A stretch of DNA of 64,000 bases from a virus. Within the stretch, counting starts at the first letter, position 1. The number at the start of each line of letters is the position of its first letter. The DNA lies in the IMG/VR virus record IMGVR_UViG_3300036715_001368, positions 1 to 64,000 of that record; one strand, 5' to 3'. The notes under the pieces were generated by a model. That model ran no database searches, was not told the origin of the DNA, and saw only the letters and a list, made by a program, of their open reading frames with translations. The position numbers and the translations under genes are program-made. Positions 8,461 through 50,900 of this stretch are shown in pieces.

Positions 8461-9984
8461 ATGGAAGCACGTGAGATCGCTCGGATGCGTTCGCTCGCAC
8501 AGAACCAGGGAAACGGTCAGCCGCAGCTGCTCGATGAGCAGTATGCGAACCACCTCGTCGGGAAGTGGAACTGGCTCACGAAGGGCATGGGCCTCGACAA
8601 GTGGACCAAGCTCTGCGTCTCGCGCCTCTGCGAGAACCAAATGGAGGAGTTCAAGCGCGCTGCGTCGCGTCGCGGGACCGTCCTCTCGGAGGACACCTCG
8701 GCCGCGAACATCCCGGACTACGTCCGCTTCATCTTCCCGGTCATCCGCCGCGTGTGGAACAACCTGATCGCTCCAGGGCTGGTCTCGGTCCAGCCGATGA
8801 CGGCGCCTGTCGGAGGCGTCTTCGGCTGGGAGTACAAGTACGGCACGTCCAAGGGAACGGTGACCGCGGGTCAGAACATGATCCAGAACTTCGACCGGAA
8901 CTACTCCTCGGAGTATGTCGAGAACGAGCTGATCGGAACCGGCGACGGTGCGACCACCACGTTCAACGACACGATCTCGTTCCTCCCGGTCAAGGCGACG
9001 AGCCTCGCGCAGCAGGGCCTCGCGCTGACCTTCACGGTCGGTGGCGTCACGACCACCAAGCTCCTCGCTGACAAGGGCGACGGAACCCTCATCGCCGGCT
9101 CGGGCATCACGAGCGGCACGATCAGCTACACGGGTGGTGCAATCCACGTCGTGTTCACGACCGCGCCCGACAATGCGACGCCGATCTACGTGTCGTACTA
9201 CTTCAGCATGGAGTCCAGCTCCACGAACGTTCCGCAGGTGAACGTCGACATCCAGCTCCAGGAGCTCAAGGCCCAGAGCCGCAAGCTTCGCTTCAACTGG
9301 AACAGCGAGTCGGCGGACGACATGCGGGCGATGCTTGGCATGGACATCGAGTCCGAGCTGGTCTCCGGCGTTGCGAGCGAGATGTCGCTCGAAATCGATC
9401 GCGAGATCATCCAGGAATGCCGCAACTCCGGCACGACGATCCTCCAGTCGTTCGACGCCACGGTGCCGCCTGCGATCACCGCGGTCGAGCACTACCGCAA
9501 CATCCTGACGCCGCTTACGCGCGTCTCGATGGACATCGCGTCGAAGACGAAGCGCGGGCCTGGCAACTGGCTCGTCATCCCGACCGACGTCGCGGCGATC
9601 CTGAGCCAGCTCGAGACCCACGGCTTCTTCAAGTCGGTGTTCTCGCCTGGTGCGTCTCCGGCAGGCATGGGCGTCCTCGGACGTCCAGGCTTCCCGGTCC
9701 CCGCTGGCCCATCGGGCTACGGCGTGTACCAGCTCGGCGTGCTCCAGAACCGCTGGAACGTTTTCCTCGACCAGTACTACCAGTCTGGCGAGATCCTCGT
9801 CGGTCTCAAGGGTTCGACGTTCGTCGACGCGGGCTTCGTCTACGCCCCGTATGTCCCCATGCAGGTCACGCCGACCTTCCTGGAGCCCGCGGACTTCACG
9901 CTCCGCAAGGGTATGCGTACCCGCTACGCGAAGAAGCTGCTGAACGCGGACTTCTACGGTCGCGTGACGGTCGCCGGTCTCTGA
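8461..9984 (+). CDS. Major capsid protein (T4 gp23-like)
   Basis: This 507-aa HK97-fold capsid protein of the T4 type builds the head shell. The start follows a near-perfect ribosome site (AGGAGGT). The N-terminal region (about 1-65) is helical and is the expected segment removed by the upstream protease. SVQPMTAPVGGVFGWEYKYG (about 117-136) is typical of the family. Residues about 157-249 hold an extra beta domain (GDGATTTF ... GTISYTGGAIHVVFTTAP ... VSYY) that also occurs in the sheath and baseplate proteins of this window; in the capsid it probably lies on the outer surface. A perfect 11-bp terminator hairpin follows at 10004, as expected for a very highly expressed gene. Confidence 0.93.
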   Translation: MEAREIARMRSLAQNQGNGQPQLLDEQYANHLVGKWNWLTKGMGLDKWTKLCVSRLCENQMEEFKRAASRRGTVLSEDTSAANIPDYVRFIFPVIRRVWNNLIAPGLVSVQPMTAPVGGVFGWEYKYGTSKGTVTAGQNMIQNFDRNYSSEYVENELIGTGDGATTTFNDTISFLPVKATSLAQQGLALTFTVGGVTTTKLLADKGDGTLIAGSGITSGTISYTGGAIHVVFTTAPDNATPIYVSYYFSMESSSTNVPQVNVDIQLQELKAQSRKLRFNWNSESADDMRAMLGMDIESELVSGVASEMSLEIDREIIQECRNSGTTILQSFDATVPPAITAVEHYRNILTPLTRVSMDIASKTKRGPGNWLVIPTDVAAILSQLETHGFFKSVFSPGASPAGMGVLGRPGFPVPAGPSGYGVYQLGVLQNRWNVFLDQYYQSGEILVGLKGSTFVDAGFVYAPYVPMQVTPTFLEPADFTLRKGMRTRYAKKLLNADFYGRVTVAGL

Positions 9985-10069: not shown

Positions 10070-10621
10070 ATGAAGGCCACTGTCATCAACGCATCGCAAG
10101 CTCCGGTGTACCTGTCCATCACGGCACAGCAGGTCAATGCTGGCGCATCCAAGGTCCTCTCGGGCCTTCGCATGGATCAGGTCAAGCAGCTGCAAGCCCT
10201 GTCCAGCAAGGACATCCAGGTTCAGACTGAGCTGGAGATGATCGACAAAGAGCCGATCGCCAGCACCATGAACACGCCCGCCAACCCGGTCGGCGGCGTC
10301 AAGCTCCTGGCGGGCTCTGGTCTCGTCCTCAAGGATGATGGCGTTGCCATCGCCTATGCGGAGAAGATCGGGCTCGGCGTCTACGACGATGCAGCGTGCA
10401 CGATTCCGAGCACGACCGCGACGTTCGACACGGCAACCCAGGGCACCATCGACAAGGGGACCGGCACCAACCGGATCGAAGGCACGACCGATACGTCGGG
10501 CCGCCTCACGCTCCGGCTCAACGTCGGCGTGGCGCGTACCGTGTACACGAAAGCGTTTCCTCTCGCCGCGACCTCTCGCGTCGTGGACTGCGCAGACAAG
10601 CACACGACCGTCTTCTCTTGA
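10070..10621 (+). CDS. Putative head decoration protein, paralogue 1
   Basis: This 183-aa protein has a tandem paralogue of identical length at 10714. Both share the MK(A/V)TV start, LKD near residue 105, GVYDDAACT near 125 and a STTAT(F/L)xTA block, and end in a beta-rich domain closing with VFS or TFS. Position directly after the capsid gene, the good ribosome site (AAGGAG) and flanking terminators suggest an abundant virion protein such as a capsid decoration or head-fibre subunit. No enzymatic motif is visible. The role is inferred from position and composition. Confidence 0.75.
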   Translation: MKATVINASQAPVYLSITAQQVNAGASKVLSGLRMDQVKQLQALSSKDIQVQTELEMIDKEPIASTMNTPANPVGGVKLLAGSGLVLKDDGVAIAYAEKIGLGVYDDAACTIPSTTATFDTATQGTIDKGTGTNRIEGTTDTSGRLTLRLNVGVARTVYTKAFPLAATSRVVDCADKHTTVFS

Positions 10622-10713: not shown

Positions 10714-11265
10714 ATGAAGGTCACCGTCACGAACAGCAGCCAGGTGGGCGCGGACATCTCGTCGATCAGCCTCTTCCTGAAGCCAGGAACGAAGAAGGTG
10801 GCGTACGGGTGCTCACTTGCTCAAGCAGCGGATGCCCAACGTCACGCGTCCGCTCTTGTTCGAGTCGAGGTGGAGCAGGACCCGTCAGACAGGCCCATCG
10901 CATTCACCACGATGGCTGCTACCGCCGATCCTGCTGCCTTGGCGACAACGTCGGCCGCCCAAGGCTTCACGCTCAAAGACTCCGCATCCGCCACGATCTC
11001 CATCGCAGAGCCTGTCGGACTCGCAGTCTACGATGATGCGGCGTGCACGATCCTGAGCACGACGGCAACCCTGAACACGGCCTCGGTCGGTACCATCACC
11101 TCTGGTGCCGGTACGAACAAGGTTGAGATGGTGACCGCCGCCGGCCAGGTTGCGCTGACCGTGACGAAGACGACCGTGGGAGCTGTCTATCTGAAAGCGT
11201 ATTCGTTGGCTGGCGCAACTCGAATTCTCGATAGTAGCGGAACACACAAGATCACGTTCTCCTGA
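10714..11265 (+). CDS. Putative head decoration protein, paralogue 2
   Basis: This is the second 183-aa member of a tandem duplicated pair. It shares the order MKVTV ... LKD ... AVYDDAACT ... STTATLNTA with the gene at 10070 but has diverged strongly in the first 100 residues. The likely fold is beta-rich, probably a virion surface protein. It has its own ribosome site (GAAGGAGA) after a terminator, so it needs its own promoter or readthrough. Confidence 0.72.
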   Translation: MKVTVTNSSQVGADISSISLFLKPGTKKVAYGCSLAQAADAQRHASALVRVEVEQDPSDRPIAFTTMAATADPAALATTSAAQGFTLKDSASATISIAEPVGLAVYDDAACTILSTTATLNTASVGTITSGAGTNKVEMVTAAGQVALTVTKTTVGAVYLKAYSLAGATRILDSSGTHKITFS

Positions 11266-11284
11266 TCTTGAGCCAGTTCGCTGG

Positions 11285-11290
11285 TAGGCT
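11285..11290 (+). promoter_or_regulatory. Possible extended -10 (TGGTAGGCT), leaderless arrangement
   Basis: TGG-TAGGCT has the extended -10 TG dinucleotide and is followed by exactly 6 nt before the ATG at 11297, which has no clear ribosome site. No good -35 is seen. Confidence 0.25.
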
Positions 11291-11296
11291 CAGCGC

Positions 11297-12007
11297 ATGG
11301 CCCGTTACTACACGCTGAACCCCAAGAACCATTTGAACCACGCTCCGAACGGTGTCTCGTTCGCGAAGCAGAATCGCAAGCTGGGCGACGTCTTTCAGGC
11401 GCCGCCCGGAAAGGACTACGACGACTTCTGCGAACGCGGCAAGAACGGGTCGTTGCCCATTCTTGTTCGAGCTTCGGGTCCGAGCGTCGTGCCCACTGGC
11501 AAATGTCCTCGTTGCGGAGAGGGAACGAACGCCGAAGTGCCGTGCTCGGTCGAGTGCTTCGTGAAGGCCGGGTACGAGGCAGAGAACTTCGAGACCTTTG
11601 TCTCGCGTTCACGAGAAGAGATCGCAGCCAGAAACGCACGAGCGTCGGCGGATGCCCCAGACATGTCGAAGCAGTTCGAGTTCGAACCGCGCCAGCCAGC
11701 CGGACCTCCGGTAAACCCTCGGGCCCCAGCGTCGGTGACGGCGCCCGAGTCGCTCGTGAACAAGGAGCTCGCCTCTGTCTTGAAGCCCGCCTACAAGCCC
11801 AAGACGGACGAGGGGCAGGATGAACAAAAACAGGTCACGCAATCGCTTGCGGATGACTCCACCCCACCCTCCAACCCGGCGGACCAAACTGGTCACGGAG
11901 CCATCACGGAAGCCTACGGGGCCACCTCCACGAACCCCACCACCACTGCGACGGCGAGGACTCAAGAAGTTGCCAAGGGTGGCTCTTCGGGCAAGACTCG
12001 TAAGTGA
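11297..12007 (+). CDS. Hypothetical protein with CPRCG zinc knuckle
   Basis: This is a 236-aa protein I do not recognise. The N-terminal half (1-70) begins MARYYTLNPKNHLNHAPNG; a CPRCGEG ... CSVEC cluster (about 70-85) suggests a zinc knuckle. The C-terminal half is Pro/Thr/Ala-rich and probably disordered. It lies between capsid-associated genes and connector candidates, so a small virion or assembly protein is plausible. Confidence 0.65.
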   Translation: MARYYTLNPKNHLNHAPNGVSFAKQNRKLGDVFQAPPGKDYDDFCERGKNGSLPILVRASGPSVVPTGKCPRCGEGTNAEVPCSVECFVKAGYEAENFETFVSRSREEIAARNARASADAPDMSKQFEFEPRQPAGPPVNPRAPASVTAPESLVNKELASVLKPAYKPKTDEGQDEQKQVTQSLADDSTPPSNPADQTGHGAITEAYGATSTNPTTTATARTQEVAKGGSSGKTRK

Positions 12008-12010
12008 TCC

Positions 12011-12775
12011 ATGACGAACGATGACCTTGCCCAGTACGTCCTTCGCTACTTTGGCAAGGAGGTCGTTGATGTCGAACTGTCAGCTCGACAGCTCGTGGAC
12101 ATCCAGGGGGACGCGTTCCGATGGTTCAACGATCGGAAGGGCCTGCGCTGTAATGCGGGTCTGATCCTTACGGGCGCTCCGCAGTACGATCTAAGCTCGC
12201 TGAATCCAGCGGTGCAGGAGGTGCTGAGCGTGGCCTTTCCGCACGCAACGGACGTTGACCTTCGAGCCATCTATGGGGACGACCTCGCGCTACCCGGTGT
12301 CCCCTGGGGCATGTTCCCGTACGGAGCACTACAGGGAGGCGTCTACTCGTCTCTTGTCCAGGCGGTTCAGTACCGAAAGACGGCCTCCAAGGTGATCTCC
12401 GCGGATCTCGATTGGGAGTTTCGACGGGTGATCGACCCGCTGACGCCGGGTGCGGCTCCGAAGCCGATGCTTGGGGTCACACCTGGGTTCAACGGTCCGC
12501 AGGGTCAGGCGATCATTCGCTACAAGGCGAAGCTCACTTCGATGGACCAGTTAGCGAACGATGACCGCGGTGAAGATTTTGTCGTCCGAAGAGCGGTCAT
12601 CGCTGCCAAGGCTCGCCTCGGTCAGATCCGAGGAAAATGGCAAACGTTGCCGACAGCGCGCGGCGAACGGTCGATGAATGGCTCTGAGCTCCTGTCTTCA
12701 GCTGCCGAGGAGCTGAAGGATTTGAACGACGACATGGCATCAACGAACATGCCCATCCCGTTCTTCACGGCATAG
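12011..12775 (+). CDS. Putative neck/head-completion protein
   Basis: This 254-aa protein starts 3 nt after the previous gene. The N-terminal part (LAQYVLRYFGKEVVDVELS ... AFRWFNDRKG) resembles the start of neck or connector proteins of large myoviruses, where a helical domain packs beneath the portal. A Gly/Pro-rich middle (about 95-120) and helical C-terminus follow. I see no catalytic residues. The neck assignment rests on position between capsid and tail genes and on general character. Confidence 0.6.
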   Translation: MTNDDLAQYVLRYFGKEVVDVELSARQLVDIQGDAFRWFNDRKGLRCNAGLILTGAPQYDLSSLNPAVQEVLSVAFPHATDVDLRAIYGDDLALPGVPWGMFPYGALQGGVYSSLVQAVQYRKTASKVISADLDWEFRRVIDPLTPGAAPKPMLGVTPGFNGPQGQAIIRYKAKLTSMDQLANDDRGEDFVVRRAVIAAKARLGQIRGKWQTLPTARGERSMNGSELLSSAAEELKDLNDDMASTNMPIPFFTA

Positions 12776-12777
12776 TC

Positions 12778-13098
12778 ATGAAGTCGAAATTCGAGCTACT
12801 GCGCGAATCGTCCATGATGCCGCGCCCCGCACACGTGTCTCCGGGAGACCCGGTATTCGTACCGTCGATGGGCAAGGGTCGTGTGACGGCCGTGACCGCG
12901 GGGAGCTGCTGGATTCACTTCGATAAGACGGTCGACGACTCTGGTCAGTCTTCGAGCACGTGGACGTCTACCGCCGCGCTGATCGCCGACCTCGAATGGA
13001 GAGATGGTCGTTGGTACATGGAGCCCAACAAACTCGGCTCCTCTGGCGACGGACCTGGAGCGGAACGATTCTGGGGCGCACTACCTCCAGGTCAGTAA
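12778..13098 (+). CDS. Hypothetical small beta-rich protein
   Basis: This 106-aa protein has a segment (about 21-60: SPGDPVFVPSMGKGRVTAV ... CWIHFD) resembling a small SH3-like or KOW-type beta barrel. It starts 2 nt after the previous stop. Function unknown. Confidence 0.6.
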   Translation: MKSKFELLRESSMMPRPAHVSPGDPVFVPSMGKGRVTAVTAGSCWIHFDKTVDDSGQSSSTWTSTAALIADLEWRDGRWYMEPNKLGSSGDGPGAERFWGALPPGQ

Positions 13099-13185
13099 GA
13101 CCGCTTCGCTACCCTGCATCCGAAACCTGGTATGGTTGGGCCATTGCAACCTGTCTGGTAAGGTCATCTCTAGGAGACGTTCTCG

Positions 13186-13746
13186 ATGAAGAACCTTTCG
13201 GCGCTCAAGAATCTGGTCGAACGAGGTGAAGCGGTCCCGACCGATGAGGACGAGGTGCCGAAGAAGCCATCGTCACGCTACATTGGCGACGTTCTCGACA
13301 CGCTCATCGCAAGCCGTCATCTTGGCGTCGACGAGGTCGATGATGCTGCCTCCGCGATTGCAAGCAACGCGGAAGACGGATACGAAGCCGTCGTCGATGC
13401 GCTGATCAAGAAGGGCCATGTCCCCGGAAGCAAGCTGATCGACGGTGGTCATCGACGTCTTCGCGAGAAGGTCCGCGGCGCGATGCGTGAGATGGTCGAG
13501 CGCGGTGCCCGCTCGATGCTGGAAGAGGCTCGTGGTCGTCGCAACATGACCGAGCGTCAGCGGACCATCGCCGAACGAATCGAGGAAGCGTTCCGAGAGA
13601 GCGTTCACGACGTTCTCAAGGCGGAGGGGTACGCTCCGCTGGATGTGGATCAGATGACGGCCGAGGTTCGTTCGCGCATCCGCGGGATCGCCAACCGGAT
13701 TGCGGTCGAGAGTGGCAAGCGCAGCATGCGTCCGTTGAGGGACTGA
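13186..13746 (+). CDS. Hypothetical helical charged protein
   Basis: This 186-aa protein is rich in Arg, Glu and Ala and looks almost entirely alpha-helical, with heptad-like patterns from about residue 85 to 150. The start has a ribosome site (AGGAGA) and an 87-bp gap upstream. It directly precedes the Dps-like gene by 3 nt, so the two are probably translated together. Function unknown. Confidence 0.65.
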   Translation: MKNLSALKNLVERGEAVPTDEDEVPKKPSSRYIGDVLDTLIASRHLGVDEVDDAASAIASNAEDGYEAVVDALIKKGHVPGSKLIDGGHRRLREKVRGAMREMVERGARSMLEEARGRRNMTERQRTIAERIEEAFRESVHDVLKAEGYAPLDVDQMTAEVRSRIRGIANRIAVESGKRSMRPLRD

Positions 13747-13749
13747 TCC

Positions 13750-14250
13750 ATGAAGAGTTTGTTCGAGAGCGCGATGGGCCTCGTCGAAGAGATCGTCGGC
13801 GCCAAGTCGATGGACGAGAAGACGCAGCTCGCTGTGCTTCGTGTCGTCGTGTCTCTCCGTGTCGCGTACATGATCCACCAGAACAACCACTGGGTCTCGA
13901 TGGGTCCGAACTCCTATGGTGACCACCGGCTCTTCGAGCGCCTGTACAAGATGTCTCAGGAGGACGCCGACTCCATGGCAGAGCGACTCGTTGGTCTTGC
14001 AGGGACGGAAGCGATTTCGTTCTCGAAGCAGATCAAGATGATCGACAAGGCACTCGAAGGCGCATCGAACGTCGACCCGGCCTCATCGTCGCTGCAAATC
14101 GAGAAGCAATGCGTCGATGTCATCGACGATGCGCTCAAGGTCGCAGCGGAGGCGAAGGGCCTGACGACCGGGCTCGACGACCTCTTGCGTGGACTGAGCA
14201 GCAACCGAGAGCAGGCGCTCTATCTGCTCAAGCAAAGGAGTCCCGGGTGA
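13750..14250 (+). CDS. Dps-like ferritin-family protein
   Basis: This 166-aa protein matches the Dps family, dodecameric cages that oxidise Fe(II) with peroxide and often coat DNA. H47-W48, H59, D74 and E78 have the same spacing (12, 15, 4) as the ferroxidase ligands H51, H63, D78 and E82 of E. coli Dps, and the HWVSMGPNSYGDH segment keeps the family pattern. Helices before and after fit a four-helix bundle. Length is normal for Dps. The N-terminus lacks an obvious Lys/Arg-rich DNA-binding tail. It is translated with its neighbours (GTGA overlap downstream). A phage-encoded Dps inside a head-tail block could protect DNA or be packaged; that part is speculation. Confidence 0.82.
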   Translation: MKSLFESAMGLVEEIVGAKSMDEKTQLAVLRVVVSLRVAYMIHQNNHWVSMGPNSYGDHRLFERLYKMSQEDADSMAERLVGLAGTEAISFSKQIKMIDKALEGASNVDPASSSLQIEKQCVDVIDDALKVAAEAKGLTTGLDDLLRGLSSNREQALYLLKQRSPG

Positions 14251-14588
14251 GCGCACTCGATGATCTCGCAGAGCTGGAGAAGCTGACGAAGTCGCCGAAG
14301 ACCTCGCGTCGTCCATGCTCTGCTCGAACGATCGAATCTCGGAGAGCGGCCCGTGCCAAGACGTCGGTGTCTCTGGAGTCGCTCATCGAAGACCTTGATG
14401 ACAGGGCTGCGCCGATGACGGTCCTGCGCATGGTGGAGGCTGCTGGCGTAAAGTTGTCGAAGCCGCTTACGGAAGCGATTCGTCGAGGCGACACGGACAT
14501 GGCCCGCGTGCTGAAGAGATTCACCGACAAGATTCGGGAGGCCGTGTCATCGGCCGCCGAAGAGACGATAGACGAGCTGACGAAATGA
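14247..14588 (+). CDS. Hypothetical helical protein
   Basis: The start is taken as GTG 14247, overlapping the Dps-like gene's stop (GTGA) with AAAGGAG upstream; a longer frame to 14109 exists but would overlap the upstream gene by 140 nt. The product is 113 aa, charged and helical, with a Ser/Arg-rich segment at about 20-40. Function unknown. Confidence 0.65.
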   Translation: MSALDDLAELEKLTKSPKTSRRPCSARTIESRRAARAKTSVSLESLIEDLDDRAAPMTVLRMVEAAGVKLSKPLTEAIRRGDTDMARVLKRFTDKIREAVSSAAEETIDELTK

Positions 14589-15088
14589 GCGCGTTCGAGA
14601 ATCTGCGCGCGAACGACAAGAGCGAGTTCCAGTTCGAAACACTGGCCCTTCGCTATCGACGTCTCGCTCGAGACTATGCGTCGGTGTGCAGGTCGGCCTT
14701 GTCCGATGGAGCTATCTGGGACGGGGTCGGCAAAGGTGCGTCGCAGGCGTTCTGGTTGAAGATGCTGGAGCTGGAGCACAAGCGCGAAGGTGTTCGTGTT
14801 GGCGTTCTTGGAGACATGCTCAACTCTATCGAGACAGCGAGCGAAGACGACGACCTGGTGGAGCTCGTCATCCGGTTCGCCGAAGACCAGCACCTTGGAC
14901 CAGAGAATGCGCAGATCGCACTTCAGGCGGAGATGCTTCGGCAGCTTGCTGTCACCGGGATTTCGCTCCTGAAGAAGGAGGCGTACGGGGACGTCATGGG
15001 TCCGTACTCGGACCGCGGCCCAAGCGAGAGCGCGCTTCTGAAGGCGAAAGAAGTCCTGCGGAAAGCCGTGGAGCTCGATCAGCGATGA
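14585..15088 (+). CDS. Hypothetical helical protein
   Basis: This 167-aa protein has an ATGA overlap with the preceding gene. It is predicted all-helical and acidic to neutral, without catalytic motifs. It is part of a five-gene translationally coupled run from 13186 to 15432, which suggests one assembly task. Function unknown. Confidence 0.65.
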   Translation: MSAFENLRANDKSEFQFETLALRYRRLARDYASVCRSALSDGAIWDGVGKGASQAFWLKMLELEHKREGVRVGVLGDMLNSIETASEDDDLVELVIRFAEDQHLGPENAQIALQAEMLRQLAVTGISLLKKEAYGDVMGPYSDRGPSESALLKAKEVLRKAVELDQR

Positions 15089-15432
15089 GAATGCCGAAGG
15101 GTTTCCATCCGCTTGATGAGTCGACAGCCGGAGCTGTCGATGATCTGTGGGCGCATCCGTACCCGTCCTATACGCCTGATCCACGCAAGAAGCTGGGGCT
15201 CGGGAGCGTCGACTGGTTTCAGAATGTCGTCGGATTACCGGGTGGTGTGGGCTTCGCCGCCGAAGACGATGATCCGGTCGAGCGCTTACGAGCCGAGGCC
15301 GATGCATGGGGACTTGCGTACGGTCAAGAACCGGAGGACCAAGTTTCTGTTCAGAAACGAGAACGCGAAAACTCGAAGGTTGAGTTACTCCGAAGTAAGG
15401 TGAAGAACATCAAGTACAACCAACCGTACTGA
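15085..15432 (+). CDS. Hypothetical protein
   Basis: ATG 15085 overlaps the previous TGA. The 115-aa product begins MRMPKGFHPLDES and contains WAHPYPSYTPDPRKK and an acidic middle, then a Lys/Arg-rich C-terminus. It could be a short linker or capsid-associated protein; nothing specific is recognised. Confidence 0.6.
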   Translation: MRMPKGFHPLDESTAGAVDDLWAHPYPSYTPDPRKKLGLGSVDWFQNVVGLPGGVGFAAEDDDPVERLRAEADAWGLAYGQEPEDQVSVQKRERENSKVELLRSKVKNIKYNQPY

Positions 15433-15454
15433 TCAACCAGGAGAGAGAGCGATC

Positions 15455-16396
15455 ATGAGCACGACAGTCAATTGGATTTCCGGTGACGACATCAAGATGT
15501 TTGGATCGACGCTCGGCCTGAGCAACCAGTCCGTCTCGGTGAGCACGGCACGCCTTCAGGCAGCCATCCTCGGTACGTCGAAGAAGGACGCAGAAGACCT
15601 CCAGAACCTGAAGGTTCACCTCAACAGGTCTCTGTTGACGGTGACCGTCAACGGTGTGTCGTGCGCCACGAAGGGTGCGTTCCTCGCCGCCATCGCGAAT
15701 CTCGACCAGGCGGAGGCGACTGACCTCGCGTCCCAGGTCGCAGGCGAGGGCGCGAACAAGGTCGGCGTCGCGAACGTCGACAAGCTGTACGTGTCGATGG
15801 AGGTCGAGGATGCGATTGCCGAGGTCGCTCGTCAGAATCGCCTTCGCAACGTGCGCGCCGTGGTCCAGTCGAACGTGGCTTCCCTCGCCGCGTGCTCGAC
15901 GACCCAGGACGGCATCACCCTCGTCGCGGGCGACACCGTTCTCCTCGTCGGGCAGACCACGGCCGCGGAGAACGGCCCTTACTTGGTCGGTACGCCGACC
16001 GCCGGCAACGCTGCGCTGACACGTCCGGGTTGGTGGAAGGCCGGGTACTCGGTTCCGGATGGCTTTGAGTTCATCGTGGCAACGGACGCGACCAGCGCCA
16101 CCGCGATGGCGAAGTGGAAGGCCACCGGGCACGGCAAGGTCGTTGGCACCAACGATCCGCTGATCTATCCGGTCCAGATCAAGGGCTCGGTTGCGCTGAC
16201 CTCGGCGACACCGTCGACCGCGTCTGTCGCTTCGCTGTTCATCGCCGCTGGTGCGAAGGCGTACCTCACGGAGACCACGAACCAGGCAAACAGCACCCTC
16301 AAGGCGGTTCTCTCGGTTGGTCAGGGCAACGGCTCCCTCGCCATCACCGGCGCCGCGACGAACACGGACACGATCGGCTACCTCATCGTCAACTGA
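15455..16396 (+). CDS. Virion structural protein with tail-fibre-type beta domain
   Basis: Residues about 125-230 of this 313-aa protein (VRAVV ... DGITLVAGDTVLLVGQTT ... ENGPYLV) match a beta domain common in phage fibre and structural proteins, usually seen as DGVTLxxGDRVLVKxQTxxxxNGIYVV. The N-terminal 120 residues look like an anchoring domain and the C-terminus is Thr/Ala/Ser-rich beta. It has its own ribosome site (AGGAGAG). It may be a head fibre, decoration or whisker component. Confidence 0.75.
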   Translation: MSTTVNWISGDDIKMFGSTLGLSNQSVSVSTARLQAAILGTSKKDAEDLQNLKVHLNRSLLTVTVNGVSCATKGAFLAAIANLDQAEATDLASQVAGEGANKVGVANVDKLYVSMEVEDAIAEVARQNRLRNVRAVVQSNVASLAACSTTQDGITLVAGDTVLLVGQTTAAENGPYLVGTPTAGNAALTRPGWWKAGYSVPDGFEFIVATDATSATAMAKWKATGHGKVVGTNDPLIYPVQIKGSVALTSATPSTASVASLFIAAGAKAYLTETTNQANSTLKAVLSVGQGNGSLAITGAATNTDTIGYLIVN

Positions 16397-17359
16397 ATGC
16401 AACTCGCCTCTCTCCTCGTTCTCGAAGCCATGGTGCTTCCGAATCCACCTCCGGACTCGGAAGTGGTCAAGAAGCGCCGTGGCTTCATGGTTGCGCTCGT
16501 GGTGCCACCGGAGATGGAGGAGGAGGTTGCTCGTGCAGGCGGATGGGCGGGTGGAGAGCGTACTTGGTCGGATCCTCTCCACTGCACGGTCGCGTACGTC
16601 ATGGATCCGGATCGAAATCTCGCCGCGACCACGGAGATCGTCCGTCGCGTTGCGAAGCAGATCCCGAGCTTCAGTCTGGTGACGACTCGAGCGGGGTTTT
16701 TCCGGAACGAGGAGAAGGATGGCGCCCTCGTTCACTACTGCGGGTGTGCGGCCCCCGAGCTCGATGCGTTCGTCGGGCTTCTCAGGCGAGAGCTTGATGC
16801 TGCGCACATCGAGCACGACACGAACCACCCGCTCTACGTTCCACACATCACGCTGGAGTACGTCGAGAGTCCTGATGAGATGGAACTGAGAGAGCGACTC
16901 CTTCGCTCTACGCAATCGCTAGCGACTCGGTTCGTCCCGACACTGGCCGTCGTGAACGACGATCAGCGGGACGACATTTCATTCTCGTCTGAAAGTTCGA
17001 CGCCGAACTGGCAGGGGTCTCCGGACATGGGGTCGTTGGTCACTGGGCTCGGCGAGGCGCTCGATGCTGTTCTGGAGGCGGACCCGGTGACCGGGAGAAG
17101 CTCGCTCCACAAGCACATGGTCGCCGCTGTCTACAAGTCGCTGAGGAAGCGCGGATCGGCCACGAAGGATGCCGCCACCGGAGCCTTCAAGATCACGAAC
17201 TCGAACCTGAAGAAGAACGGCTATCAGGGCAAGGGTGATTCGGGTCGTCTCACCGGAAGTGGTGCGAACCGATCGAAGAATCACGCCGCCGAACCTGCTG
17301 GCGAACGCGCGAAGAAGGACAAGGACTACGCAGCGGTCAAGAAGCTCGCGACCGCGTGA
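16397..17359 (+). CDS. 2H phosphoesterase (LigT/2'-5' RNA ligase-like; possible Acb1-type)
   Basis: This 320-aa protein has both histidine motifs of the 2H superfamily: H62-C-T64 in LHCTVAYV and H150-I-T152 in HITLEYV. These enzymes open cyclic phosphates or cleave 2'-5'/3'-5' nucleotide bonds. The phage T4 member 57B (Acb1) cuts CBASS cyclic nucleotides, so anti-defence activity is a reasonable hypothesis, though RNA repair is equally possible. The domain covers about 28-195. Residues 195-320 are an extra basic region (KHMVAAVYKSLRKR ... LKKNGYQGKG) of unknown role. It starts directly after the previous stop without a good ribosome site. Its position amid structural genes is unusual. Confidence 0.82.
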   Translation: MQLASLLVLEAMVLPNPPPDSEVVKKRRGFMVALVVPPEMEEEVARAGGWAGGERTWSDPLHCTVAYVMDPDRNLAATTEIVRRVAKQIPSFSLVTTRAGFFRNEEKDGALVHYCGCAAPELDAFVGLLRRELDAAHIEHDTNHPLYVPHITLEYVESPDEMELRERLLRSTQSLATRFVPTLAVVNDDQRDDISFSSESSTPNWQGSPDMGSLVTGLGEALDAVLEADPVTGRSSLHKHMVAAVYKSLRKRGSATKDAATGAFKITNSNLKKNGYQGKGDSGRLTGSGANRSKNHAAEPAGERAKKDKDYAAVKKLATA

Positions 17360-17475
17360 CGTAGCTACCAGGTAGTGATACTCGTAGATGAGCGGTGGTT
17401 CGGTTGCTGGCGTGTACCGAGACTACGGTGGTAGGTTTAGAAAACGCGTTGGCAGTCGCATCAGGAGAGAAAAAA

Positions 17476-17835
17476 ATGAACCTTCGTATCGGTGGAACCC
17501 TCTCAAGTCGTTCGAGTCAGGCTCGTGGTCGTCAGACGGTCGCGAAGCGCCGTACGGCACAGGTCGAGAACAGCAGGGTGCCCCACGGCTTCCCGGGCAA
17601 TGAGGAGCTGTACAACCAGTTCTGTGCGCGCTCCGGGATCTCCGATCAGCGCGTCGAGCAGGCGGAGACAGCTGCGGCCATAAAGCGGCTCACGGCACGA
17701 ATGGAGCGCCTACACGAGGGCATGGAGGCTGCTCGTAAGTCGGGCAACGTCAAGAAGGCCCAGCACCTCTTCGTCAAGCTCAGCGAGTGCATGGTCGCGT
17801 ACGGCGCATCTCTGGAGACGATGCTCATAGGTTGA
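17476..17835 (+). CDS. Hypothetical basic, coiled-coil protein
   Basis: Start chosen at ATG 17476 because AGGAGAG lies just upstream; in-frame starts further up (17395) have none. The 119-aa product has an Arg/Ser-rich N-terminus (about 1-35) and a helical C-terminus with heptads (about 65-110). Function unknown. The 116-bp gap before it contains nothing clear. Confidence 0.6.
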   Translation: MNLRIGGTLSSRSSQARGRQTVAKRRTAQVENSRVPHGFPGNEELYNQFCARSGISDQRVEQAETAAAIKRLTARMERLHEGMEAARKSGNVKKAQHLFVKLSECMVAYGASLETMLIG

Positions 17836-17839
17836 GCCG

Positions 17840-18355
17840 ATGGGTACGCTCATCGGCGACAAGGATGCGGACTTCTTCGACGCGCGAGTCCGAGAGATCA
17901 ACCGGCTCGCGGGAACGTGTGCGATCACGTACTACGCGCTCAACTTCGAAGCGACCCCGAAGGATCCGCTCTACGGTGAGCCGATTGAAGAGATTCATGT
18001 CAGAGACCCGCTGAGAGACACGCTCGGGATCGCCTTCAGTGGGCTCCTGGAGTATCCGGAGCAAAGCGTTCGGACTGGCGAAGAAGGACAGCACGCGGAC
18101 TACGACGCGTCCCTCTGGCTTGCGCGCAAGGACTTCGAGGAAAAGTTCCCGATCCCCAACGCACCAAAGGGCACGCCCTGCGCACGACAGCCAAAGGTCG
18201 GAGACGTCATCCAGGTCCAGGATCGCTACTACGACGTCATGGCGATTGACGCGCAGGGCCAGTTCAACGACACCATCGCGCGACACGCCAACTGGCTATT
18301 GAAGTTGAAGCATCGCACGGAGTTTGATGCCCGCCGCCGGCTGGAAGGAAAGTAG
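17840..18355 (+). CDS. Putative head-tail connector/neck protein
   Basis: This 171-aa protein contains DPLYGEP near residue 42, followed by a beta-rich region, and CARQPKVGDVIQVQDRYYDVM (about 113-133). The ...LYGEP... pattern followed by a beta-barrel and GDxIxVxxxxYxV strand is typical of small neck or stopper proteins of myoviruses in my recollection. Position between capsid and tail genes agrees. Moderate to low certainty. Confidence 0.55.
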   Translation: MGTLIGDKDADFFDARVREINRLAGTCAITYYALNFEATPKDPLYGEPIEEIHVRDPLRDTLGIAFSGLLEYPEQSVRTGEEGQHADYDASLWLARKDFEEKFPIPNAPKGTPCARQPKVGDVIQVQDRYYDVMAIDAQGQFNDTIARHANWLLKLKHRTEFDARRRLEGK

Positions 18356-24189: not shown

Positions 24190-26403
24190 ATGGCTAACAA
24201 GAGCGCGAAGGTTACGATCGAAGAGCTGCCGGCGGCACCGGGAGCGATTGAGGGCGTTTCGACGTCCACTGTCATCACTGCTGGGTGGACGAAGCGAGGC
24301 CGCACCGACGTCATCGTCAGGGCAGGAAGCTACGCCGAGGTCGAACAGAAGACGGGGACGTTCTGGAAGAACTCGTACATCGCCTATGCGCTGAACGGCT
24401 TCTTCAACAACGACGGTCAGAGCGCGTACATCCGTCGCGTGACGCCGTCTGACGCAGTAGCCGCGAACCTTACGTTGGCCGATGCCGCAACTGCGGCCGT
24501 GTTCATCGGACGCACCTTCGCGACGACTTCGATCACGACCCTGTCGGCGTCAAAGTACAACATGAAGTTCACGGTGAACGCCTTCACACCGACCACGGTC
24601 GACGTGACTTCGAATGCTGGCGTGTCTGGCTCATACCTGTTGTCGGCGATTGTCACGAACATCAACACGGCGATGGCTCTCGTGGACGTGTCGCTCTCCA
24701 ACTTCGCGTCGCTGATCACGCAGGTCACGAGCGCTGGCGTGCGGTACCGCATCCAGCTCACATCTCCGACGACTGGCGCCGCATCGCAGATCGCATTCAC
24801 TGCCCCGGTCTCGGGCGGGTGCAGCCTGGAGCTGTTCGGGATCGTCTCGACGGACCTACCGAAGACTGTCCTCGGCCAAGCTGCCGTGGCGAGTCGCTTC
24901 ACGGTCACTGCGCTCGGCGCAGGTCTTTGGGGCAACGACATCCAGATCCAGATCGTCGGTGACCCGAACTGGAAGACCTCGACTGGTGGCTGGACCAAGT
25001 TCGACGCCATCATCAACGAGGAGCTGGACGGCAACAACAAGTTCACCACGCGCGAGACCTATTCGGAAGTCGTCCTCGATGTCGACACCGACCCGGCGTT
25101 CATCGCTGGGTACATCGGAGCTCGCTCGAGCTACGTGACGGTGACGGAAGGTGTCGGGTACGGCATCCCACGCACCCTCGTACCCGTGTCGATCACGAAG
25201 GAGTTCCTTGGTGACGCAGTCGGCAACGCGTCGCTCACGACCTTTACTGGTCGCCTGATGAACCTGCCGAACCGCAAGAACGTCACCATCACCACGACCC
25301 TCACCGGTGCGATCAGCGTGAACGTGACCGACAACGGTACTGGGTCCTTCTCCGGAACGGGCGTGTCGTCTGGCACGGTCGACTACATGACCGGCGAGAT
25401 CAGTATCACGTTCTCCGCAGCTCCGACTGCTGGAACCCCCGTCTACGTGGCGTACACGACCACGGCTAGCGACACAGTCACGTACGATCTGGCAAGCGGT
25501 ACGGATGGCACTGGTCCTCTGGGTCGTTCAGACGTCACCGATCCGTCGCTAGCCGCGACGAAGGGTGGCATCTATCTGTTCAACGACATCACGGATGAAG
25601 TGCTCAACGTCATCCTGCCTGACTTCGCAGGCGTGCTGTCGGTGCACAACGACCTGATCTCCTGGGCAGAGACGAGGAAGGACATCTTCGTCATCCTGGA
25701 TCCGGCGGCCGGGCTCGATGCCGCCGGCGTGGTCACGTACCGCAGGGACACGGGCGCGTTCAATACGTCCTACGCCGCGCTGTACTGGCCGTGGATCAAG
25801 ACCGCAGACAGCCTCGCGAATGGAGCGCCCAAGAACGTGCCGCCCTCTGGACACGTGGCGGGCGTCTACGCACGGACCGACTCTACGCGCAACGTCGCCA
25901 AGGCGCCCGCTGGCGTCACGGATGGTCGACTCGTCGGAACCCTCGGGTTCGAGCGAACGATCTCCGAGACCGATCGTGACACGGTCTACCCGACTGGCGT
26001 CAACCCAATGATCGGCGAGCGCCAGACGGGCCGAGCTGTCTGGGGCGCCAGGACGCTCTCGCTCGACAAGCGCTGGCGCTACATCCAAGCGCGCAGATTC
26101 TTTCTGTTCGTCGAGAAGAGCATCTTCGTCAACTCGTGGTGGACGGTCTTCGAGACGATCGGTCCGGAGCTGTTCAGTCGAATCCAGACGAACGTCCGCG
26201 GTTTCCTCCGCGGCCTGCTTGCTCAGGGGTACTTCCCAACCAAGAAGGAGGAGGACGCGTTCGCGGTCGTGGTCGACAACACGAACAACGACGACAACTC
26301 CTCGCAGAACGGCGAAGTCATCATCGACACGTTCCTCGCAACCACGACCCCAGGCGAGTTCATTCGCTTCCGGTTCCGTCAGAAGATCGCCCTCGCGGCG
26401 TGA
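24190..26403 (+). CDS. Tail sheath protein
   Basis: This 737-aa protein forms the contractile sheath that shortens to drive the tube through the envelope. The N-terminal segment (TIEELPAAPGAIEGVSTS ... GRTDVIVRAGSYAEVEQ) and C-terminal third (SWAETRKDIFVILDP ... LSLDKRWRYIQARRFFLFVEKS) carry the sheath hallmarks. Between about 340 and 430 lies a beta module (GTVDYMTGEISITFSAAPTAG) that also occurs in the capsid and three baseplate proteins here, probably a surface insertion. The ribosome site is good (GGAGGAGAG) and a terminator follows the gene. Confidence 0.93.
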   Translation: MANKSAKVTIEELPAAPGAIEGVSTSTVITAGWTKRGRTDVIVRAGSYAEVEQKTGTFWKNSYIAYALNGFFNNDGQSAYIRRVTPSDAVAANLTLADAATAAVFIGRTFATTSITTLSASKYNMKFTVNAFTPTTVDVTSNAGVSGSYLLSAIVTNINTAMALVDVSLSNFASLITQVTSAGVRYRIQLTSPTTGAASQIAFTAPVSGGCSLELFGIVSTDLPKTVLGQAAVASRFTVTALGAGLWGNDIQIQIVGDPNWKTSTGGWTKFDAIINEELDGNNKFTTRETYSEVVLDVDTDPAFIAGYIGARSSYVTVTEGVGYGIPRTLVPVSITKEFLGDAVGNASLTTFTGRLMNLPNRKNVTITTTLTGAISVNVTDNGTGSFSGTGVSSGTVDYMTGEISITFSAAPTAGTPVYVAYTTTASDTVTYDLASGTDGTGPLGRSDVTDPSLAATKGGIYLFNDITDEVLNVILPDFAGVLSVHNDLISWAETRKDIFVILDPAAGLDAAGVVTYRRDTGAFNTSYAALYWPWIKTADSLANGAPKNVPPSGHVAGVYARTDSTRNVAKAPAGVTDGRLVGTLGFERTISETDRDTVYPTGVNPMIGERQTGRAVWGARTLSLDKRWRYIQARRFFLFVEKSIFVNSWWTVFETIGPELFSRIQTNVRGFLRGLLAQGYFPTKKEEDAFAVVVDNTNNDDNSSQNGEVIIDTFLATTTPGEFIRFRFRQKIALAA

Positions 26404-37529: not shown

Positions 37530-37922
37530 ATGCCCGTAATTGGTACAGGAAAAAGCGTGACTGGTATCGCTTGGCCGTGGGTTCCTTCTTCCGGAGGAAT
37601 TCCTGCTCAGGTCAGCGACCAAGAAGCCGTGGCAGCGAACCTGCTCATCCTGTATTCGACACAACCTGGTGACGACAAGACGGCACCCACGTTCGGTCTG
37701 AACTTGAACAGCTTCGTCTTCGAGACGACGGGGGCCTTGCTTGATAACCTCGTGAAGGTGGAAGTCATCCGGTCTACAGAACTTTGGGAGCCAAGAGTCC
37801 AAGTAATCGACGTTGTGACCGTCGCCGACAACACCGATGACGGAACCGTGGTGACGATCACGGTCGACTACTACTTCATCGGCGTCAGCAGCCAGATCAC
37901 TTTCCAGCGGAGTACGGCATGA
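37530..37922 (+). CDS. Baseplate wedge protein (gp25-like)
   Basis: This 130-aa protein matches the gp25/GPW family: APTFGLNLNSFVFE near residue 52, a helix, then ELWEPRVQVIDVVTV (about 84-98) with the conserved EPR motif, and a final VTITVDYYF strand. gp25 links wedge to sheath and triggers contraction. It overlaps the J-like gene by 4 nt. Confidence 0.88.
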   Translation: MPVIGTGKSVTGIAWPWVPSSGGIPAQVSDQEAVAANLLILYSTQPGDDKTAPTFGLNLNSFVFETTGALLDNLVKVEVIRSTELWEPRVQVIDVVTVADNTDDGTVVTITVDYYFIGVSSQITFQRSTA

Positions 37923-40645
37923 TCCTCTCGGCACCTGAGCTTGCAGACTTCCCGGTGTCCCCGAGCAACGGAGACATCGTCTTCAACACATCGCTGGATG
38001 CTGCTTACGTGTGGGCGCCTGGTGCTCCTGGCGTCGTCAATGGTGGCTGGCTGTTTCTGACCAGCGGGAGCATCTTGCGTTCGTCGGAGCGCGTGACTGA
38101 CACGCTGACGCGCAGCGCCTACGCTGGGCGCGACTACCAGACTTTCCTCGACGAGGTGTCTGCGAACATCAAGTCGAACTTCGGTTCGGTCTACAACGAC
38201 TTCCTGACGGCCGCACCTGGCCGCATGCTGATGCGATTCATCAGCGCCGCCCTCGACACCCTCTCGTTCAACATGGACCAGAGATCGGTCGAGGCGTACA
38301 TGTTCCTGGCAACGCTTCGTTCGAGCATCGCGCGCAACGCGCATCAGCAAGGATACAAGCCCAACAGGGCGACGGCAGCGAGCCTCGATCTCACGCTCAC
38401 GCTCCCCGATGGACCGTACGCGTTCGACGTTTCGATCAAGGCAGGGTTCCAGTTCGATGGACCGAACGGACTTGTGTTCGAGCAGAGCTCAGACACGGTC
38501 ATCCCGTCTGGCTCCACTGTCGCCAGCAACGTTGGATACCACCAGGGCGAGACGGTCATCGAGGTCTTCACAAGCAACGGAACCGCCAACCAGCGGTTCA
38601 AGCTTCGCCGTGTCGGTGCGGATCGCGAGATCGCACGAGACACCGTCACCTGTCTCGTGAACGGCACGACCTGGAACGAAAACGATTTCCTTCCGTTCGC
38701 TCCGGTCAACGAGTTCGAGGTGAGCTACGACACGAGCCCTCCATTCGTGAGGTTCGGCGACAGCGTTCTCGGGAACATTCCTGCTGCTGGTGTCGAGATT
38801 CGAATTAAGTACGTCGCAACCAAGGGAGAGCTTGGAAATTCGGTCCCGGTGAACACCGTGACCCAACCGAAGACTGCTCTGGTGGCGAACTTCCAGGACA
38901 TCACAGTGGTTGGCTCACACACGGGCTCGAGTTCTGGAGGAGCGCCAGCAGAGGATTCGCGTTCGGTGCAGGCAAACTCGCCGCGCTTTTTCTCGACAGC
39001 GAATCGCGCGGTGTCCCAGCCAGACTGGGACGCGTTGCTGAACGTATTCTCCGATGGGTTCGTCGGCACGGTGGCCAAGGGCCGTGCGCAGGTTATCCGT
39101 GGCGTGAAGAAGGAGCTGACGATTCAGAGCCTACTGGCTGCCATCAAGGCCGCCTCTTCTCCGACCGCCGGTCTTGCCACGATCACGGCTGCCAACGTCA
39201 CCATTCGTTCGAAGACGAACGCCGTCAGGGCAAAGGTCGTCGACATCGGCGCTCAGCATGATGCTGTGGCCGCCAAAAAGGCGCTCCTGGACACGTCGCT
39301 TGCAGGATCGCTCACCGACACGAGCAATGCGAAGACGGTTGTCGCCACGCTGAAGGCGGAGCTTGGCGATCTTCCGTACCAAGAGCTTCTCGGCGTGTCG
39401 GACGGCTCGACGACGGTCTTTGCATCCGGGCTGTCCAAGCTGCCGGTTGTACCTGGCACCGTCGCGGTGCTCGTGTCGCCCATGAACACGGTCGCGTCCG
39501 ATTCGAATGGTGACGCGAACTCGTTTCCTGGACAGATCTCCATCGGAGCGTCGGTTTTCACGTCCGACATGGTCGGTCAGATCATCAAGATTGGAGCCGA
39601 CTACAGAAGGATCATCGCCTTCGCGAGCGGCACGCTGGTCACGTACAGTGGACCGAAGATTTCGGGAACGACCCTCCATGTCTACGTCTATGGAAAGACC
39701 ATCCAGGCGTTCGACGATGGAGCCGGCGCGATCGTTGGTGCCGGGATCACAACGGGCACGATCAACTACGCGACTGGGTCCGTCTCGATCACCTTCGCAG
39801 CTGCTCCTTCTGGCGATCCGGGATTTGGTGGTCATCCCGTCATGTGCTCGTACCGATACAAGGACGCGCACATGCGCGGAGAGACGGACTCGATCAACAC
39901 GTACATCGTGGATGCGGAGACCAAGATTGCAACCGCCCAGGCGGACTCCACGGCGATGGCGGCTCTCCTTGCGCTGATCGATGCGGACGAAGCCGCGATC
40001 AATGGTCTTTGCACCAACATCGACACGTCGACAGCAACAAGCGACGGAGGAGTCGGAACGGCCCAGCTGGTTCAGGAAGCCGTAGGGATCGCAGCCGACA
40101 ACCTGGAGTCGTACCTCGACACGGTCATCAGTGGCGAGTGCAAGGCAAACATCGTCCAGTGCAAGATTCTGACGTTGGATGCAAACGACGACTATGCCCC
40201 TCCGACCCAGGCGCTCTGTACGGCCGTGAAGGCGTACTTCGATCCGCTAAAGATCATCACGACCACGTGCTCCGTCGTGAGCGGATACAGGGATCTCATC
40301 GCCGTGAACATCACGATCAAGATCGAGGTGGAGAGAAACTTCCTGTACGCCAAGGTCCGGCCACTCGTCGATGCTGTCGTGACGCCGCTCCTCAAGAAGC
40401 GGGACTACAACGTTCCGCTCTTGGTCTCCACCCTGTACCGCACCATCGTGCCGTTCAACGGCGTGGGTGGCGTGACGGGTGTAGCGAGCGCCATCGTCAA
40501 GATCACGGACACGACCTGGAAGGATCCGTCCAACACGGATCCGGTCGTGATGCCGAACGCGGACGGGGACCTCATCCCGCCGGATGGGACCGCCATCGTC
40601 CGCGGAACGATCACGTACAGCGAGCTCGTTCGAGCGTCGAGCTAG
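37919..40645 (+). CDS. Baseplate wedge protein (gp6/gpJ-like)
   Basis: This 908-aa protein fits Baseplate_J/gp6. It has RDYQTFLDEVSANIKSNF and DFLTAAPGRMLMRFISAALDTL near the N-terminus, a barrel domain (VEIRIKYVATKGELGNSVPVN, about 295-320), and a C-terminal region (VVSGYRDLIAVNITIKIEVE ... YNVPLLVSTLYRTI). Residues about 480-650 are an insertion with the recurring beta module (GTINYATGSVSITFAAAP) interrupted by another small domain (about 530-585). It is larger than T4 gp6 (about 660 aa) largely because of this insertion. Confidence 0.88.
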   Translation: MILSAPELADFPVSPSNGDIVFNTSLDAAYVWAPGAPGVVNGGWLFLTSGSILRSSERVTDTLTRSAYAGRDYQTFLDEVSANIKSNFGSVYNDFLTAAPGRMLMRFISAALDTLSFNMDQRSVEAYMFLATLRSSIARNAHQQGYKPNRATAASLDLTLTLPDGPYAFDVSIKAGFQFDGPNGLVFEQSSDTVIPSGSTVASNVGYHQGETVIEVFTSNGTANQRFKLRRVGADREIARDTVTCLVNGTTWNENDFLPFAPVNEFEVSYDTSPPFVRFGDSVLGNIPAAGVEIRIKYVATKGELGNSVPVNTVTQPKTALVANFQDITVVGSHTGSSSGGAPAEDSRSVQANSPRFFSTANRAVSQPDWDALLNVFSDGFVGTVAKGRAQVIRGVKKELTIQSLLAAIKAASSPTAGLATITAANVTIRSKTNAVRAKVVDIGAQHDAVAAKKALLDTSLAGSLTDTSNAKTVVATLKAELGDLPYQELLGVSDGSTTVFASGLSKLPVVPGTVAVLVSPMNTVASDSNGDANSFPGQISIGASVFTSDMVGQIIKIGADYRRIIAFASGTLVTYSGPKISGTTLHVYVYGKTIQAFDDGAGAIVGAGITTGTINYATGSVSITFAAAPSGDPGFGGHPVMCSYRYKDAHMRGETDSINTYIVDAETKIATAQADSTAMAALLALIDADEAAINGLCTNIDTSTATSDGGVGTAQLVQEAVGIAADNLESYLDTVISGECKANIVQCKILTLDANDDYAPPTQALCTAVKAYFDPLKIITTTCSVVSGYRDLIAVNITIKIEVERNFLYAKVRPLVDAVVTPLLKKRDYNVPLLVSTLYRTIVPFNGVGGVTGVASAIVKITDTTWKDPSNTDPVVMPNADGDLIPPDGTAIVRGTITYSELVRASS

Positions 40646-47920: not shown

Positions 47921-50900
47921 ATGGGTATCGACGTTGGCCTTTCAATCCCGGGAGTCAATGCCGGTGACGTAGTCGCCAGCAGCAATGGCTTTTCGGCGGT
48001 CGCCAATACGCTCGATGTGCCCGCTGGACAGGACATCGGCACTGCTGCCACGTGGAATATCCCTGCCTACGATGCAACGATCTTTGGCGCGAACATACAA
48101 CGTTGGTATCGAGCTATTGATATTGACGGCAACACGATCACTTCGGGTATCTGGCGAGACTCCGCGCACAACTTCGATTCGATCATCGGTGGCGGCCTCG
48201 TTCTTCCGACGCTTGCGCTGATCAGTGGGAACGCGGCCCTCGAGTTTGTTGGTGGCACGACCGCACCGTTGGTCATTTCCTACGGTGGTAGTGGTAGCGG
48301 ATCACTGACTACGCCACCCATTGGTCAGACGTTCGGTGGCGTCATGACCGTTGGCTTCGTGATTGAAACCACGACGTACAGTAGCGGGACTGGACCACAG
48401 GTCGTGGTCGGACAAAGTTACTACGGCAACGAGTTTGTTTTCGCCGTGGACTGGATCAGCAGCGCTGACGGAAAGCTGTACTTTGTCTACGGCGACGCGG
48501 GTTCGGTGTGGATCGCAAGTGACGCGCCTATCGCGGATGGCCATCCGCATACGGTCGTAGGCACGTGTGATGGGGCCTTCATCCGCCTCTACATTGATGG
48601 CGTCTTGCAATCATCGGTCGTCGCCATCAAGCCACCGGACCTGATCAACGGAACTCGATACGACGCTGACGACGTGAGTGTCGGCGGCACGTCCTTCTTC
48701 GGAAACGCAAGCAACAGCGCCTCGACCCTGTTCGTAGGTCGCGTCACTGAGATCGTTCTCGCGGACACCGCACTCGAGGGCGGTGGCCTTGCCCTGTTCC
48801 AAGCGAAGCTTGCGACGCTCACGACGACGCCGAGCACGCCTGTCCACGCGATCTTCGGTAACAACGTCCGGCACTGGTTCGCGTCTGAATCCACGTACTC
48901 AAGCGGCATCTGGTACGACCTCGCGCTTCAGCGGGACGCAGACCAGGGCATCTTCGGCATGTCCGCACCGTCCCCCGCGACGATCAACGGCAACCGCTGG
49001 TACTCATTCAATGGAACCTCGAACGGGTTCGTGGTTCGCCCATCGACGACTGTCAATCCGTCGAATGCACAGGTCGTCCGCAACAACGCGACGGTCGCGT
49101 GTGTATTTCAGACCTCGGTCGTTGGGTACCAGACACTCGTCGCGCAGCAGTTCTACGTTGCCGGGTTCTGGATCTACATCGACACGAGCGGCTTTCTTAC
49201 CGCGACCTTCACTACTGCTGCCGGCTCTGCGCGGTCGAACGCAACTGTTAATGATGGGCTCCCCCACGCGCTCGTCGTCACGTGGGATGGCACGCTCGGC
49301 ATCGTCACCATCTATCTCGATGGCGTTGTGCAGACGCAGACGCAGACGGGCGCGACCGGCCCGATGGTCATCGGAACATCAGATGATCTGAACATCGGCT
49401 GCGTGACTGCAACCAACGGTAACGCGGGCGCGTACTTCTGGAACGGCTACCTCGGTGAGGTGCTGATCGTCGACACGGTAGCGACCACAGCGCAGCGCAC
49501 CGCTCTCACGACGTACCTGACGAGCTGGTTCTCGGCTTCCGGAAGCACGATCAACGGAACGATCGCGGCTCAGGCAACAACGTCTGTTGTTGCAAACTTG
49601 CTCGGCAATGGTGCGGAGACTGAGCAAGCTACCGCTACAGCTTCTGTCGTCGCGAACCTATTGGGCACCGGAGCTCCGTCCGAGCAGGCAACGGCCACCA
49701 GCTCCCTTGTCGCGAGCTTGCTTGGTAATGGGGCTGAGACGGAACAGGCCACGGCCACAGCGTCCGTCGTTGCCAGCGCGACTGGGGCCGGAGCTCTCTC
49801 TGAACAAGCCACAGCCCTTGGCTCGCTTGTCGCGAACGCGGTCGTCATCATTACTGAGCAGGCAACGGTCACTGGCTCCGTGGTCGCGAACGCAACGGCC
49901 TCGGGCGCCTTGACGGAGACCTCGCAGGCCACCGCTTCTCTGCAAGCGAACATTGTCGCTGCCCTTTCGGAGCAAGCTTCCGCCGCCGCGTCCCTCGTTG
50001 CGAATGCGGCAGGGTCCAGTGCATTGAGCGAACAGGCTACGGCAACAGGTTCGGCTACCCTCGACCTTCGTGGAGCAGTACCAGGTACCGAACAAGCCAC
50101 CGCCGCCGGGTCGTTGGTCGCCAACCTGCTCGGAGCTGGAGCCCTCACTGAGCAAGCTACTGCTATAGCTTCGTTCGTCGGCTCGGCGGCCGCTACGCTG
50201 TCTGGTGGTGAGCAGGCCACCGCCACATCGTCGCTTGTCGCGAACCTGCTGGGGACAGATGCGGCCTCGGAACAAGCCGTGGCAACGACGTCCCTCGTCG
50301 CCAGCGCTCTAGGAAGCGGCCCGGAGACCGAACAAGCCACTGCTACGACGTCCCTTGCCGCGAGCGCTACAGGCGCGGGTGCGCTGACGGAGCAAGCGAC
50401 AGCCACCGGAACGCTGCAAGCGAACATCGTTGCTGCGCTTACCGAGCAGGCGACAGCCACGGGTTCGGTGGTTGCGAATTCTACTGGTGCGGGTGCTCTC
50501 ACAGAGCAGACCGCCGCGACTACGTCAGTGACGGCGACCACTGGAGTTATCGTCACCGAGCAGGCGACCGCAAATACGTCGTTGGTTACCAACGGTGTGG
50601 GCGCCGCTGCGGGGTCCGAGACATCGCAGGCAACGGCATCGGCCGTTCTGGACCTTCGTGGGACCGGAAGTCTGAGTGAACAAGCTGCCGCCACCAGTTC
50701 TGTTGTAGCAGGCGCAACAGGAGCCGAAGCTGGGTCCGAGCAGGCCACTGCGATAACGTCGTTGGTTGCGAGCCTTCTCGGTACTGATGCTGCTTCGGAG
50801 CAGGCCACGGCCACGAGCTCCATGGTCGCGAATGCTCTTGGCAAGGGCGCCATCATGGAGGCGGCCCAGGCAACAGGCTCTCTCCAGGCCACGATTGTCG

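Follow-up and report, generated by a model that had tools for sequence, protein, structure and literature searches.

The 64,000-nucleotide stretch analysed here (the window, bases 1-64,000 of an IMG/VR virus record of 159,018 bases in total) encodes a Dps-type ferritin, located within a phage morphogenesis operon and carrying an intact set of ferroxidase ligands. On the sequences compared, this protein belongs to a broad, monophyletic viral clade that is separate from cellular Dps. Phage Dps are already known as a kind; new here is the separate viral clade variant, which is apparently undescribed, as judged by a literature search covering few subscription journals. We consider it probable that the protein is a working Dps mini-ferritin, made late in infection, which removes Fe(II) and peroxide.

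Gene, ligands and predicted fold

The ferritin gene, its ligand codons and the surrounding genes are located as follows.

3008: portal (context)
6748: protease (context)
8461 to 9984, + strand: major capsid protein (phrog_138, 2e-58)
12011 to 12775, + strand: head-tail adaptor (phrog_211, 4e-7), conserved in the relatives L004-L007
13186 to 13746, + strand: upstream neighbour ORF of Dps
13750 to 14250, + strand: Dps-type ferritin of 166 aa, ATG start (ORF, Pfam, match to solved Dps, AlphaFold2 model)
13888 to 13890, + strand: H47 codon, first ferroxidase half-site, W48 next (sequence; invariant in the 58-row alignment)
13915 to 13947, + strand: clade signature YGDHRLFERLY, residues 56-66, containing H59 and E63 (sequence, alignment)
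13969 to 13983, + strand: D74-E78 codons, second ferroxidase half-site (sequence, 58-row alignment)
14247 to 14588, + strand: downstream neighbour ORF of Dps
15455 to 16396, + strand: head-decoration-like protein (phrog_2647, 3e-11)
24190 to 26403, + strand: tail sheath (phrog_23, 3e-54)
30666: tape measure
37919 to 40645: baseplate protein

The Dps ORF begins 3 nt past the stop codon of the upstream gene, and its 3′ end overlaps the start of the next gene (GTG at 14247) by 4 nt. Its third-position GC of 0.79 is similar to that of the neighbouring genes. Because many relatives start at the residue corresponding to M21, this methionine is an alternative start; of the two candidates, only the ATG at 13750 is preceded by a Shine-Dalgarno-like GAGGG.

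A sequence-only reading of this DNA had named H47, H59, D74 and E78 as the ferroxidase ligands of a Dps-like ferritin. Their positions are exactly as claimed, and their spacing of 12, 15 and 4 matches Dps. The fifth ligand is E63. At this site E. coli Dps has an Asp, and the Bacillus Dlp proteins, in the alignment with solved Dps, have a Glu. HMM searches against Dps and ferritin families, which the same reading had proposed as a check, placed the protein just over the cut-off of Pfam Ferritin (PF00210, 24.7 bits against 24.5), with phrog_3636 as the nearest PHROG (5e-10). Among solved Dps structures, 1n1q matched by sequence (E 7e-8), and the profile of the viral clade matched Staphylococcus aureus Dps at 1.6e-12. 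Scores against the NCBIfam equivalogs for named cellular Dps (NF052461, NF006975 and NF041388) were 34, 22 and 20 bits, below their cut-offs of 300, 114 and 170.

Structure prediction, here of the monomer, gave the four-helix bundle that the same reading had required. The AlphaFold2 monomer, modelled from a 58-row alignment, is a confident four-helix bundle (pLDDT 93.3). Its predicted helices span residues 23-49, 55-84, 110-134 and 140-163, with a BC helix at 91-102 and no fifth C-terminal helix. Both the short BC helix and the missing fifth helix are Dps traits, and the best 50 matches of a PDB fold search were Dps or Dps-like mini-ferritins (TM about 0.7). Sequence match, ligand conservation and predicted fold all point to a Dps-like ferritin whose ferroxidase site is intact.

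H47, W48, G57, D58, H59, F62, E63, Y66, D74, E78 and Y158 are invariant in the 58-row viral alignment. H59 and E63, like all residues of GDHxxFExxY, belonged to the pattern by which the relatives were found, and HW served as a filter; the conservation of D74, E78 and Y158 is independent of both. Among the 71 viral members of checkable length, 68 keep all five ligands in exact register, and in the other three it is shifted by small indels or an insertion. A further motif, G141, E154 and Y158-L-L-x-Q162, is conserved towards the C-terminus. Pairwise dN/dS was 0.02-0.16 in four clade pairs, dS being saturated in all others, which points to strong purifying selection on the intact site within the clade.

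A viral clade of Dps proteins

Early scans for close relatives, queried with the protein alone or with an alignment of two rows, retrieved only one huge phage and a 100% identical copy of the locus (L001/L003), which is probably from the same population. What gave access to the clade was a degenerate DNA pattern encoding [YF]GDHxxFExxY. It matched 78 stretches in 2.9 million IMG/VR contigs, nearly all of them Dps-like. With all loci pooled, 72 distinct motif ORFs passed the Dps filter, a set that includes the record of a 485-kb phage and the identical copy of the window gene. One metagenome (3300035180) holds both that identical copy and a different phage with another clade Dps (L169/L038). 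Among the contigs carrying clade members, 28/69 exceed 100 kb and 14/69 exceed 200 kb, as raw counts.

Across 84,980 genomes of bacteria and archaea, the same pattern matched 45 stretches, none of them Dps-like. Among 50,697 records of isolated phages, the only clade member was an unannotated 485-kb metagenomic phage; the other matches were distant phage Dps. This phage, the nearest match in the isolate collection, shares YGDHxLFExLY and the C-terminal YLLxQR with the window protein. A search with the clade profile of 61 genomes from the phylum of Brevibacillus gave a top cellular score of 57 bits, for an ordinary Dps.

In the tree, whose cellular part consisted of ten Dps, a branch with an SH-aLRT support of 100 sets the viral clade members apart. 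As a check on signature bias, the signature columns were removed, and the support remained 100. Furthermore, a profile from which the window protein had been left out scored it at 150 bits, the ten cellular Dps at 15-57 bits, and three other phage Dps at 27-51 bits. Since the cellular comparison comprised ten Dps and 61 genomes, "virus-only" means here not found outside viruses by the signature or in this sample.

The closest cellular systems with a name are bacterial Dps (PF00210), for example Nostoc Dps4 (5hjf), Brevibacillus Dps (1n1q) and Bacillus Dlp-1 and Dlp-2. They share with the window protein the four-helix bundle, the BC helix and the equally spaced ligands H, H, D/E, D and E. The viral clade differs by its YGDHLLFERLY, compared with ..F..LHxxFExxY in cellular proteins, and by its C-terminal YLLxQR. 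The viral proteins are also acidic and lack a cationic tail.

Dps of C3 podophages (Privateer, 7-11 and phiEco32 relatives; nearest PHROG phrog_3636) are likewise phage-encoded, but fall outside the viral clade, and their gene lies among nucleotide-metabolism genes. By fold, the nearest named viral proteins are two BFVD entries from uncultured Caudovirales phages, A0A6J5RS28 (36% identity) and A0A6J5LAB8 (33%), which probably belong to the same clade as the window Dps. Both are automatically annotated, and A0A6J5LAB8 is a 754-aa fusion named ParB/Sulfiredoxin.

Genomic setting

The placement of Dps inside the virion gene block, as the sequence-only reading had it, was borne out. The order is portal, an ORF at 5055, protease, major capsid, two tandem paralogues, an ORF at 11297 and the adaptor on one side. 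After two small ORFs comes Dps, and on its other side two small ORFs, the head-decoration-like gene, sheath, tape measure and baseplate. No sigma-70-like site, the sole promoter type scanned, was found in 11000-17400, and the window contains neither a tRNA nor an Rfam element.

Several other features of the window were observed. The capsid (8461-9984), sheath (24190-26403) and baseplate (37919-40645) proteins appear to share an inserted domain with a motif like 'GSGITSGTISYTGGAIHVVFTTAPDNATPIYVSYYF'; BLAST joins the sheath and capsid copies, both of which match phrog_6128 and phrog_1014, and the baseplate copy was recognized by eye. The tandem paralogues immediately 3′ of the capsid gene (10070-10621 and 10714-11265) are about 40% identical and apparently single-copy in relatives. 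An RNA-ligase-like gene lies within the structural block (16397-17359; weak match, phrog_2659 9e-5). The region 47921-52171 encodes a 1416-aa protein bearing many 'EQATATASVVANLLGNGA' type repeats.

Four related contigs (L004-L007), with a capsid protein about 50% identical, have retained the genes for portal, protease, capsid and adaptor, mostly together with a gene like that at 17840. The segment after the adaptor is filled by other genes. Neither Pfam nor the clade profile detected a ferritin in the whole records of these four, two of which are short fragments. Therefore, the Dps gene is here a variable insert in the morphogenesis operon, rather than a core or essential virion part. The region 12775-17840 and its counterparts form a hypervariable segment, whose gene content differs in each related phage.

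Elsewhere in the clade, Dps lies three genes ahead of a sheath gene (L036; phrog_165, 6e-50), adjoins the terminase (L180, L182, L197), or is found in a head block with the portal (L195). In L008 and L176 it adjoins GroEL and fibre-like genes. These GroEL-like genes of large phages are located at L008:5151-6698 (phrog_5725, 5e-82) and L176:11084-12658, and the gene preceding Dps looks SET-domain-like by eye. Two lineages (about 19 and 7 loci) have Dps among non-structural genes. A full-length Volactin (PF25216, 7e-73), of an actin family known from archaea, adjoins Dps at L164:10528-11550, with homologues in about 19 loci of large phage contigs.

In 17 contigs the order is fixed, with Dps 3-4 kb 5′ of a conserved 1430-aa protein. 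We suspect this protein to be a tail sheath and did not count it as evidence: no match came from PDB and PHROG profiles or from comparing its profile with that of the window sheath, and its AlphaFold2 model was unusable (pLDDT 32). Some clade members are parts of larger predicted proteins of 387-1382 aa. In two of these, L172:7166-11311 and L181:38-1693, the Dps domain shares the predicted polypeptide with an inorganic-pyrophosphatase-like domain (PF18823). In BFVD, other phage Dps-like folds occur within proteins named 'Prohead protease', going by names only.

A probable late ferroxidase and its alternatives

In known Dps, the two ferroxidase half-sites come from different subunits. Because both half-sites are conserved, a dimeric ferroxidase is argued for here: H47, H59 and E63 of one subunit would pair with D74 and E78 of the other, and the dimers would build a small hollow cage. 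Late expression is suggested by the position in the operon, consistent with the tight co-directional coupling and the lack of a nearby sigma-70-like site. Dps would then be produced alongside head and tail proteins, oxidize Fe(II), with H2O2 as preferred oxidant, and sequester the iron. Replicated and packaged phage DNA would thereby be spared Fenton damage, as would the host machinery on which the phage depends until lysis. Given the four relatives without the gene, such a benefit would be conditional, and since the members of two lineages lie outside structural blocks, late expression would not be general in the clade.

An oxidative-stress role has been proposed for other phage Dps. Gut 'Gratiaviridae' encode Dps together with Mn-catalases, interpreted as oxidative-stress tolerance (PMC8008677), and the same was proposed for the Dps of Lactobacillus phages, whose gene is near replication genes (PMC6669764), whereas the window gene is in the head-tail block. 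Moreover, phage infection can increase host dps and catalase (PMC7354516).

The main rival is packaging. In this scenario the capsid or neck would incorporate Dps, either as a cage or as a domain fused to head proteins, and the Dps would accompany the DNA into the next host or guard the packaged genome against radicals. We regard packaging as possible, though clearly less probable than a late ferroxidase. The location between adaptor and sheath, the neighbouring sheath, terminase or portal genes in other members, the large fusions and the 'Prohead protease' entries would all fit. The sole positive result in the literature is the Dps of Proteus phage Privateer, found by mass spectrometry in purified virions with which it copurifies, its gene being outside the structural region (PMC7881722). 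However, the Privateer protein is a distant Dps of a different branch (27 bits, compared with 150 for the window protein), no copy was seen in the four relatives, and in about 26 loci of two lineages Dps is apart from structural genes. Somewhat more doubtful still is the specific form in which a virus-specific ferritin lineage is delivered in the particle, with the cage loaded in the capsid or neck and every virion having a ferroxidase and perhaps an iron core. If true, the packaged genome would be protected, or peroxide defused on entry.

The sequence-only reading had also raised DNA binding, including condensation of host DNA, and this part was not supported for the window protein. A Dps coating or compacting host or phage DNA, in the style of E. 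coli Dps, would agree with the family membership and with the label 'DNA binding protein' of phrog_3636, but this label is a transferred annotation. The window Dps is acidic (pI 5.4, clade median 5.3; charge -4.2 at pH 7), including its N-terminal tail (about -2.5 over 22 residues). The cationic tail of E. coli-type DNA-binding Dps is absent, the clade median N-tail charge is 0, and a tail charge of at least +3 occurs in just 7 of 56 members. Because the protein is acidic and has no cationic tail, E. coli-type DNA binding is unlikely as a selected trait.

Least likely, by a narrow step, is a metal site that is structural only, clamping a scaffold or assembly factor with no turnover as a ferroxidase: the fusions, the location in the morphogenesis block and the C-terminal motif, which is unrecognized in cellular Dps and suggests an added virus-specific interaction, would suit it, but all five redox ligands and the neighbouring Trp are retained, and a structural metal would need fewer.

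Phage Dps genes were earlier viewed as sporadic borrowings that aid the oxygen tolerance of the host. Here many of them fall into a single deep viral branch, marked by a signature of its own and recurrently placed beside head, packaging and tail genes. With a late ferroxidase as the favoured function, this clade would make the control of iron and peroxide a recurrent need of large phages. The signature can serve as a short tag by which the family is annotated, and iron within phage particles becomes a question open to proteomics and metal analysis.
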